Below, piece after piece: positions 20,385 to 23,195 of a stretch of 64,000 nucleotides of DNA; the first letter of the stretch is position 1, and the number at the start of each line of letters is the position of its first letter. The translations under genes were made by a program, and so were the position numbers. Under the pieces are notes generated by a model, which had not been told where the DNA came from, did not search any database, and was given only the letters and a program-made list of their open reading frames with translations. This DNA is from Parapedobacter sp. SGR-10. Its GTDB lineage: Bacteria; Bacteroidota; Bacteroidia; Sphingobacteriales; Sphingobacteriaceae. Location of the stretch: the NCBI RefSeq assembly GCF_011030405.1, contig NZ_JAAJTJ010000017.1:1-64000 (forward strand), written 5' to 3'.

Positions 20385-22385
20385 ATGAAGAAAAATTTTG
20401 TATTGATAGCTATTTTGGCTGGTATGAATGTGCATTGCACTCAAAATCATGCCATTAACTTGAAATTTATGGACAAAAGTGTAAAGCCACAAGATGATTT
20501 TTACAATTATGTAAATGGCAACTGGATGCAGACAGTAGAGATTCCGTCGGACAAGGCCAGATGGGGATCATTTGATGAACTACGCGAAAATACAGACGTA
20601 GCTACGTTGAAAATCCTAAAGGAATCCTTGGGCAAGACATATGAAAAGGGTTCGGACGGCCAGAAGATTGCCGATCTATACCAATCCTATGTGGATTTTG
20701 ATACCCGTAATAAGATAGGGTTGGAGCCTATTCAAGGGCAATTGGCAGATATAGAAAAGGTTCAAGACCTAAATGGCCTATTTGACTACTTTGTAAAATA
20801 TGGTAAGGAAGGTGGCAATCCTTTCTTCGGAGGCTATGTGTATGCACATATGAAAAACAGCAGTATGAATGCTGTCTATCTTGGTGGCGGTAGCCTTGGT
20901 CTTGGACGTTCGTACTATCAGCAGGACGATGAAAAGAACCGACAGACTTTGATGGACTATACACAGTACGTGGATACCTTATATACCAAAGGTGTGGATG
21001 GGGCAAAAGGATCGAAGGGTGGGGACGTCGTGGCATTCGAAAAGAGCATTGCTTCTTATCTCAAAACGATAGAGGAGATGCGCGATGCGCAAAAACGTTA
21101 TAATCCTGTCGCCGTGGCAGATCTGGGCAAGATAGTGAAAAACATGGACGTCGCTAAGTATCTCGATACGATGGGGTTTCGTGCGGATACCGTGATCATC
21201 AGCGAATTGGCCTATTACCAAAATCTGGATAAGATCATCAACCCACAAAATCTACCTGTCATCAAGGATTATTTGAAGTTTCATCTGGTCAATGGTGCTA
21301 CAGGCTATCTGACCAAAGAGCTGGACGAATTGTCTTTTGATTTTTATGGTAGAAAGCTCAAAGGGCAAAAAGAGCAAAGAGCTTTGGACAAGAGAGGGTT
21401 GGAGTTTGTGAATGGTTCGGTAGGGGAATTGCTGGGCAAATTGTACGTGAAAGAACATTTTCCCGAAGAAGCCAAGCAAGCCTGTGAGGAATTGGTACAG
21501 TATCTGATCAAGTCCTTCGAGATCCATATCAAAGACCTGGCCTGGATGTCTCCTGTAACCAAGGAAAAAGCTCTGGAAAAATTATCCAAGTTTACGGTAA
21601 AAATCGGTTATCCGGACAAATGGAAGGATTATTCCAAACTCGATATTGGTAATTCGCTGTACGAGAATGTAAGGAATGTCAATCTATGGGCATTCGAGGA
21701 TAATCTGGCCAAGCAAGGTAAGCCTGTGGACAAGACCGAATGGGGAATGACACCACAGACCGTGAATGCATATTATAATCCGTTGCATAATGAGATTGTT
21801 TTCCCGGCAGCGATATTGCAACCCCCATTTTATGATTACAAAGCGGATGCGGCTGTGAATTTCGGTGGTATAGGAGCCGTCATTGGGCACGAAATATCAC
21901 ATGGTTTTGATGATTCGGGATCCCAATACGATGGCAATGGCAACCTCAACAACTGGTGGACAGAAGAGGACAAAGCCAAGTTTGATGCGGCAGCAGATGC
22001 TTTGGTAAAGCAGTTTGAAGCCTATGAGCCTGTACCGGGTGTCTTTGTGAATGGCCGTTTTACGTTGGGCGAGAATATCGGAGATCTGGGTGGATCTTCT
22101 GTAGCATTTGATGCTTTGCAGCTGTATCTGAAAGATAAAGGAAATCCGGGAGAGATCGATGGGTTTACGCAGGAGCAACGCTTCTTCTTGTCCTGGGCAA
22201 CGATATGGCGTACGAAGACTACCGATGAATTTGTCGTCAATCAAGTCAAGACCGATCCGCATTCTCCGGCACAATATAGGGCCGTCGGACCGATCATTAA
22301 TCTGGATGGTTTCCATGATGCCTGGGATACGAAGCCCGGAGACAAGATGTATGTACCTAAGGAAGAGAGAATCGTCATTTGGTAA
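20385..22385 (+). CDS. M13 family zinc metallopeptidase (neprilysin/PepO-like)
   Basis: 666 aa from the ATG at 20385 (MKKNFVLIAILAGMNVHC), a lipoprotein-type signal. Full-length M13 architecture: PQDDFYNYVNGNWMQ near the N terminus, long alpha-helical cap, then the catalytic lobe with VNAYYNPLHNEIVFPA, the zinc motif GHEISHGFDDSG (HExxH, ~res 500), GENIGDLGGSS (third zinc ligand Glu in ExxxD) and the terminal CRVW-like region replaced by a short PKEERIVIW. M13 enzymes cut peptides under about 5 kDa in the periplasm. Neighbours give no further clue. Downstream lies a structured non-coding region. Confidence 0.93.
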   Translation: MKKNFVLIAILAGMNVHCTQNHAINLKFMDKSVKPQDDFYNYVNGNWMQTVEIPSDKARWGSFDELRENTDVATLKILKESLGKTYEKGSDGQKIADLYQSYVDFDTRNKIGLEPIQGQLADIEKVQDLNGLFDYFVKYGKEGGNPFFGGYVYAHMKNSSMNAVYLGGGSLGLGRSYYQQDDEKNRQTLMDYTQYVDTLYTKGVDGAKGSKGGDVVAFEKSIASYLKTIEEMRDAQKRYNPVAVADLGKIVKNMDVAKYLDTMGFRADTVIISELAYYQNLDKIINPQNLPVIKDYLKFHLVNGATGYLTKELDELSFDFYGRKLKGQKEQRALDKRGLEFVNGSVGELLGKLYVKEHFPEEAKQACEELVQYLIKSFEIHIKDLAWMSPVTKEKALEKLSKFTVKIGYPDKWKDYSKLDIGNSLYENVRNVNLWAFEDNLAKQGKPVDKTEWGMTPQTVNAYYNPLHNEIVFPAAILQPPFYDYKADAAVNFGGIGAVIGHEISHGFDDSGSQYDGNGNLNNWWTEEDKAKFDAAADALVKQFEAYEPVPGVFVNGRFTLGENIGDLGGSSVAFDALQLYLKDKGNPGEIDGFTQEQRFFLSWATIWRTKTTDEFVVNQVKTDPHSPAQYRAVGPIINLDGFHDAWDTKPGDKMYVPKEERIVIW

Positions 22386-22473
22386 GAATAAAAGGGGGAG
22401 CTACACGGTCAATCCGGCCTCTATGCCGGCCGGGCATCCGACTTGGAAAGGGCCCAAGTCGGCAAGGCCCCTT

Positions 22474-22642
22474 GTCCAATCAATGTGGTCTGTCGCACAG
22501 GCCAGTACTCACGGCAACAGATACCGTCAAGGCTGGGAAGAGTTCCGAAGCCTTAGGATGGGGCTTCGGAAATATCCCCTAGGCCTTGTCCGACCCATCG
22601 TCCCCGGTATCTGCTGTCGTCTGCCACCACTTGTGATTGGAC
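22474..22642. ncRNA. 169-nt rod-like structured element (candidate ncRNA)
   Basis: Six helices pair in strict nested order: GTCCAATCA (22474-22482) with TGATTGGAC (22634-22642); GTGGT (22485-22489) with ACCAC (22626-22630); a 16-bp arm 22511-22526 with 22605-22620 (one G-U, one mismatch); CAAGGC (22528-22533) with GCCTTG (22583-22588); GGG with CCC near 22535 and 22576; and TTCCGAAGCC (22543-22552) with GGCTTCGGAA (22562-22571). Strand cannot be told. It may be transcribed as a small RNA, be a long inverted repeat of a mobile element, or be a folded 3' UTR of the M13 gene. Confidence 0.5.
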
Positions 22643-22693
22643 GGAGTGCATTCTACAACGGATATCTTCTTCCTGCATGTAACACCCATGTTA

Positions 22694-22750
22694 GCGCACG
22701 AATCCTTTCGTGTGCTTGTTATTTATAGACACACGAAGGGATTCGTGCGC
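22694..22750. repeat. 22-bp hairpin
   Basis: The arm 22694-22715 (starts GCGCACGAATCC) is nearly the exact reverse complement of 22729-22750 (ends GGGATTCGTGCGC), with a loop of about 13 nt rich in A and T. Located between the rod-like element and the pseudoknot-like element. Confidence 0.75.
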
Positions 22751-22836
22751 CAGCGTTAGGCATAGAACTCACTGATATGTAAGTAAGGACAATCCGTATT
22801 AGATATCGCTTGTCCATTTCACCAGTATCGGCAGGA

Positions 22837-22950
22837 ATAGCCCTGCAACGGGAGGCTGTGCGATGGGATGCCCCTAGCTCTGTTCAGTTTTGCTGATGGC
22901 CATTGCGTTAGACCTAGGGAAGCAAAACCAAGGGCAGCAGTTAGGGCTAT
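22837..22950. ncRNA. domain enclosed by an 8-bp helix with crossing helices (possible pseudoknot)
   Basis: ATAGCCCT (22837-22844) pairs perfectly with AGGGCTAT (22943-22950). Inside, CCCTAG (22872-22877) pairs with CTAGGG (22914-22919) and GTTTTGCT (22887-22894) pairs with AGCAAAAC (22921-22928). The last two helices cross, with one unpaired base between their 3' strands, as in an H-type pseudoknot. In addition GGCTGTGCGATGGGATGCC (22854-22872) is repeated imperfectly at 22960-22978 (15 of 19 match). All helices are exact complements, but transcription has not been shown. Confidence 0.42.
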
Positions 22951-22986
22951 TGAGCAGAGGGTTGTGCGACAAGATGCCTTGAAATG

Positions 22987-23023
22987 GGCAAAAGGTTTTG
23001 GTCCTTTTGCCTTACAAAAGGAC
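22987..23023 (+). promoter_or_regulatory. two mutually exclusive hairpins
   Basis: GGCAAAAGG (22987-22995) pairs with CCTTTTGCC (23003-23011), but GTCCTTTTG (23001-23009) also pairs perfectly with CAAAAGGAC (23015-23023). The middle segment cannot be in both stems. This three-strand arrangement is what an RNA switch uses. It is about 170-200 nt upstream of the FemAB-like gene. A T-run is lacking after the second stem, so a terminator role is not clear. Confidence 0.4.
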
Positions 23024-23195
23024 TAGGCCCGTCTGGCCATGAAGACGGAAAGGTGGTGGAAGGGAAAAACACAAATCATTGATTAAAATAAACCTCCGTA
23101 TTATCTATAAAAAACGAGATGCCTGCCACCGGACCAAGCAGGTGTTCGCCCTATAAGCAAATATAGGAAGCACCCTCTTTATAAAATATTTTGGC

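Follow-up and report, generated by a model that had tools for sequence, protein, structure and literature searches.

The 169-nt inverted repeat that lies behind an M13 peptidase gene, at positions 22474-22642 of the window (the whole stretch of DNA analyzed, 64,000 nucleotides in length), belongs to the left half of a gene-free, dispersed repeat of about 700 nt. On balance, we consider this repeat to be a non-autonomous, probably mobile element, the function of which resides in a structured RNA formed by the sense strand of each half. Judged from the sequences, it looks like an undescribed family of structured RNA that is carried by a spreading, gene-free repeat.

A stable fold in a repeated sequence

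The first-pass annotation had described a rod-like nest of helices over these 169 nt, regarded chance as an unlikely cause, and suggested a small RNA, a double-strand-like RNA, or a multicopy element. The nested helices are indeed present, closed by a stem of GTCCAATCA/TGATTGGAC, and folding of both strands against shuffled sequences bore out the remark on chance: the plus strand reached -78.5 kcal/mol, compared to -52.1 ± 4.2 kcal/mol for the shuffles (z -6.3, with 0 of 200 as stable), and the minus strand reached -78.3 kcal/mol (z -5.7, again with no shuffle as stable). The z-scores of both strands, together with the covariation over 52 sequences described below, led us to reject chance folding. 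Protein coding was also rejected, since the 189-aa open reading frame (22159-22728) spanning the rod is disrupted by frame-shifting indels between copies.

The suggestion of many copies was upheld by a search of the same genome, which retrieved the surrounding ~280 bp in about nine copies that are 83-94% identical, the repeat unit being ~22400-22684. The A-type copies of 22474-22642 are 166-169 nt long and, taken as a family, fold better on the minus strand (-72.7 kcal/mol) than on the plus strand (-61.6 kcal/mol); in 22474-22642 alone the wobble asymmetry is weak. A second and commoner repeat, the right or C domain, lies downstream (22761-23110) and has about 21 copies in this genome. The two are parts of one intergenic composite element (~22387-23107), of which the genome holds about 25 copies, measuring about 560-790 nt between the terminal repeats.

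Architecture of the two halves

The relation between the two halves was established with a covariance model that was trained on right halves alone, leaving out 22474-22642. On the minus strand, this model matched exactly 22474-22642 over its full length (model positions 1-184) with an E-value of 2.7e-10 (filters off, 901 bases); a run over the whole window with default filters did not report the region. Three other A-type copies were found on the same (minus) strand with default filters, at E-values of 5e-10 to 6e-9. The right-half model thus re-finds 22474-22642 in inverted orientation, which makes the element an inverted pair of diverged halves, with 22474-22642 as the left counterpart of the right core. 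The simple rod therefore gave way to a different picture, in which the 169 nt are the core of the left member of the pair, on the minus strand, with an H-type pseudoknot to its outer side.

From the center outward, each half consists of the core (H1, H1b, H2 and a hairpin with the conserved loop UGUGCGACA), PK2, an outer hairpin and a terminal repeat (Table 1). It is to be noted that the inner part of the core was resolved less well, and that a further pseudoknot within it, PK1, was inconsistent and is not claimed. The elements are bounded by terminal repeats with the consensus AAAYGRAGGNTTAATTTA and its reverse complement, and this end consensus is common to both sides in 18 copies; they thus carry terminal inverted repeats, as MITEs do. 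They lie between genes and have no conserved reading frame, and other copies have different modules, structured too, in place of the left domain.

Table 1. Coordinates of the parts of the composite element in the window.
Feature	Positions	Strand	Sequence and basis
Left terminal repeat, AATAAAAGGGGGAG	22387-22402		Decayed form of the family consensus AAAYGRAGGNTTAATTTA; 9 A-type copies and the ends of 18 elements compared
Left outer hairpin, PK3-like, candidate pseudoknot	22414-22437	-	Loop GGCAT faces ATGCC; from sequence; analogous in other copies
Left PK2, H-type pseudoknot	22438-22473	-	AAGGGGCC - TTG - CCGACTTGG [GCCCTTT] CCAAGTCGG; complementarity test on 20 PK2 instances from 8 genomes
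Core domain of left half	22474-22642	-	Diverged homologue of right core; folds, covariance model match 1-184, ~9 genome copies
Inserted near-perfect 77-nt hairpin between the halves	22684-22760		In 3 of ~25 copies; absent from most
Right core domain: H1, H1b, H2, inner helix, UGUGCGACA loop motif	22812-22989	+	~21 copies
Right PK2, H-type pseudoknot	22990-23023	+	AAAAGG TTTTG GTCCTTTTG [CCTTA] CAAAAGGAC; in other genomes the pattern falls immediately 3' of the core hits
Right outer hairpin, PK3-like, candidate pseudoknot	23024-23047	+	TAGGCC-CGTCT[GGCCATGA]AGACG; from sequence; analogous in complete copies
Right terminal repeat	23082-23107		GATTAAAATAAACCTCCGTATTATCT

Two kinds of insert were observed along the way. 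The 77-nt hairpin, which reads GCGCACGAATCC...GGATTCGTGCGC, is inserted in three elements; at locus L013 an imperfect repeat of ~19 bp of host sequence (CATATAACGTACTGATGTG / CATAGAACGCACTGATATG) lies on either side of it, and it may therefore be a small mobile hairpin in its own right. A sub-insert, GTTTGTTTTCAATGGAATCCATGAGCTCGCTCCGCTCGG, recurs in the loop of the right PK2 region at four loci (L067, L066, L013 and L068), and similar ones are found in left modules. On the sequence evidence, modules are swapped between the halves in inverted orientation.

Covariation, pseudoknots, and the choice between RNA and DNA

In a 52-sequence alignment (A3), standard pairs occupied 97.5% of the cells over 36 pairs, compared to 34-44% in slid controls, and double (compensatory) changes occurred at 35 of the 36 pairs. 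Helix-preserving compensatory changes across homologues, by which a structured RNA is recognized and which had been named beforehand as support for RNA function, were thus found. A3 was fitted to the covariance model, which inflates these pair counts, and the unbiased support therefore comes from 20 right halves aligned independently with MAFFT, in which helix b, the inner helix of the core, had 4 covarying pairs and none broken; MAFFT applied to core plus tail sequences misaligned H1 between species. Directly 3' of the core, PK2 is laid out as a segment a, a linker of the TTTTG type, and a hairpin b with a loop complementary to a. In 20 distinct instances from 8 genomes, segment a formed, on average, 4.6 contiguous Watson-Crick pairs with its own loop, as against 3.05 with permuted loops (z 7.4). 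The outer hairpin (PK3) resembles a further pseudoknot, and is listed as a candidate. Overall, the RNA structure of the halves is well supported by these sequence comparisons. Of the first-pass interpretation, the many copies have stood and the functional RNA fold is supported by covariation; the rod has given way to the picture above.

A fold that acts as DNA is expected to show G-U and A-C in like numbers. Among the right halves of this genome (20 sequences, MAFFT), G-U filled 19 cells, spread over 11 pairs, and A-C filled none; in the whole of A3, G-U occurred at 22 pairs and A-C at 3. The presence of G-U and absence of A-C in the right halves favors selection on the folded sense-strand RNA over DNA. 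The same counts weigh on an alternative that we consider rather unlikely, namely a MITE- or REP-like element operating entirely at the DNA level and without RNA function, the single-stranded hairpins and pseudoknots of which would be recognized by a trans-acting tyrosine (HUH) transposase. Such recognition of single-stranded DNA has been proposed for REPs and for the TIR repeats that flank RAYT-like (TIRYT) genes. A DNA element of this kind would account for the inverted terminal repeats at both ends, the lack of an open reading frame, the intergenic dispersal, and the pairing of inverted units as in BIMEs; moreover, TIRtrons with long families of TIR repeats have been described (PMC3733652). 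It does not account for a wobble pattern that is expected of RNA and not of DNA, nor for a 180-nt core plus pseudoknot, which is far larger than REPs; in addition, a motif scan of the compared loci, although a weak test, detected no RAYT-like open reading frame.

Occurrence in related genomes

The FecR/SusC-type genes of the host suggest a member of the Bacteroidota, probably of the Sphingobacteriaceae. The right-half model matched genomes of the same genus (G061, G028, G029, G116 and G108) as well as four that belong to different genera within the family (G117, G152, G299 and G349). A permissive run found matches in 15 of 19 selected genomes (14 besides that of the window), which represent five genera of one family, with up to 22 matches per genome (G028 has 21 copies, and G061 and G029 have 12 apiece). 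Among species of one genus, the copy number ranges from 0 to 22. The helix sequences are wholly different between species, yet their pairing is kept; copies within a genome are alike. No match beyond the genome of origin was obtained among 395 genomes drawn from the class, but only 6-28 candidates were scored per genome, so that this absence is weak evidence. In G028, the units also form head-to-tail arrays of up to five; in two of its arrays (L192 and L193) the spacing is about 373-590 bp, and the long unit again includes an inverted half of the left type.

A search for the PK2 pattern, which is independent of the model and returned no match in the reversed control, placed PK2 directly downstream of model core hits, for example in G130:C36, in G236:C11, and in G029 near 2105 kb. 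Its 22 matches in G106 and 25 in G029 indicate that the core model undercounts. At G106:C1:1745989-1746273 the PK2 motif is repeated with a 64-bp spacing, apparently as a tandem of pseudoknots alone. G094 and G093 (L210, L215 and others) have 13 and 4 PK2 motifs, respectively, with no match to the core model, and probably represent remoter relatives, the core of which is different. An exact 19-mer of the core gave a single, chance-like match, in Streptomyces, among 84,980 genomes; the PK2 pattern was absent from the phage contigs, and the plasmids searched gave no convincing match. The PK2 sequence may resemble repeats in Pseudomonas/Xanthomonadaceae, a likeness that was not counted as evidence.

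Ends, flanks and neighboring genes

The outer ends of the elements are not sharply defined, and no target-site duplication was found, own and crossed flanks both scoring 2.0, although the actual ends may be located farther outward. The two terminal repeats paired only slightly better within an element than between elements (p 0.05), and their co-variation as a single closing stem, being this weak, was rejected. The M13-GNAT neighborhood is not kept in the same-genus loci compared, and these offered no empty site for comparison. In the loci flanking the copies, there was neither a transposase nor any other shared protein family.

Mechanical calling of open reading frames placed a convergent gene pair around just 1 of 20 elements, and nearly all are therefore situated 5' of at least one gene. 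This position, the strong structural conservation across genera, and the occurrence of an element adjoining ileS on its upstream side in two species (L065 and L231, genomes G000 and G029) would suit a host-useful RNA, i.e., halves that regulate in cis as leaders or act in trans as sponges or RNP scaffolds, with the copies kept by selection at their sites. We judge this to be improbable, more so than the DNA-level element, because the neighboring genes are otherwise unrelated, the copy number swings from 0 to 22 within one genus, and the core near ileS points in opposite directions, relative to that gene, in the two species. A transcription terminator or insulator between genes is highly improbable: it would agree with the pronounced structure, the intergenic sites and the T-rich tails that follow the right terminal repeat, but the near absence from convergent gene pairs argues against it, and the region has one terminator-like site, inside the inserted hairpin, against 0.7 expected.

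A possible mode of spread

In the non-autonomous, RNA-based element that we favor, each half would encode a structured RNA unit facing outward from the center, and selection would act on the folded sense-strand RNA, a view supported by covariation and wobble asymmetry. The element would spread within the genome without a protein of its own, its mobility being suggested by its multi-copy, patchy and species-specific occurrence. The fold would most likely be a recognition handle for a protein, of the host or of a transposon, by which the element is moved or maintained in trans, and the mobile intermediate might be either RNA or single-stranded DNA. In its most specific form, which we offer only tentatively, the proposal is that of a mobile element, found in one bacterial family and encoding no protein, that depends for its spread on its own folded RNA, with two outward-facing, pseudoknotted and inverted halves that evolve fast in sequence, keep their shape, and are moved in trans.

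The findings describe a structured RNA family that is not in Rfam and that occurs in 15 or more genomes from five genera, reaching ~20 copies in a genome and forming both inverted pairs and tandem arrays. If confirmed, they would tie dispersed intergenic repeats, usually taken to be DNA hairpins, to a conserved pseudoknotted RNA, and would allow a test of whether RNA is the means by which such repeats spread or act.

Comparison with known families

When the 20-25 kb part of the window and ten loci, drawn from nine genomes, were scanned against Rfam 15 with cmscan, no element had a match at gathering score; the only match at that level was a tRNA in L189, outside the element, and sub-threshold matches of miRNA type fell on the inserted hairpin (22690-22754). 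Literature searches retrieved no description of the repeat, and the element does not conform to the full definition of any known family.

REPs, BIMEs and the TIR repeats of TIRtrons (PMC3733652) are likewise multi-copy, intergenic and palindromic, often in inverted pairs or clusters, and devoid of a protein of their own. However, REPs are palindromes that measure 20-40 bp and are tagged at the end by GTAG or CGTC, whereas each half here is ~300 nt long, ends in AAAYGRAGG, and contains a covarying RNA core and an H-type pseudoknot; the tyrosine transposase of the REP and TIRtron systems is also not seen beside the copies. Bacterial MITEs share the lack of an open reading frame, the terminal inverted repeats and the dispersed intergenic copies, but differ in that no target-site duplication was found here, no parent IS was identified, and the RNA fold is apparently under selection across genera.

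In structure, the element is reminiscent of OLE, GOLLD, ROOL and HEARO (PMC12286853), which are also large and have elaborate, conserved folds that include pseudoknots; unlike these, it matches nothing in Rfam, and has ~20 dispersed copies per genome in inverted pairs and tandem arrays. HEARO works with IsrB (PMC12286853), and an adjacent IsrB/IscB-type open reading frame characterizes the HEARO/OMEGA RNAs, whereas no protein partner or open reading frame family is common beside the elements. The STAXI motif (PMC2864571) is similar in being a recurring pseudoknot for which RNA versus single-stranded DNA is an open question, and dissimilar in taxa, sequence and neighbors, the present element again having no Rfam match. 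The nearest known systems are REPs, BIMEs, MITEs and the TIRYT TIR repeats (PMC3733652) in genomic habit, and OLE, GOLLD and HEARO (PMC12286853), along with the STAXI pseudoknots (PMC2864571), in structure.
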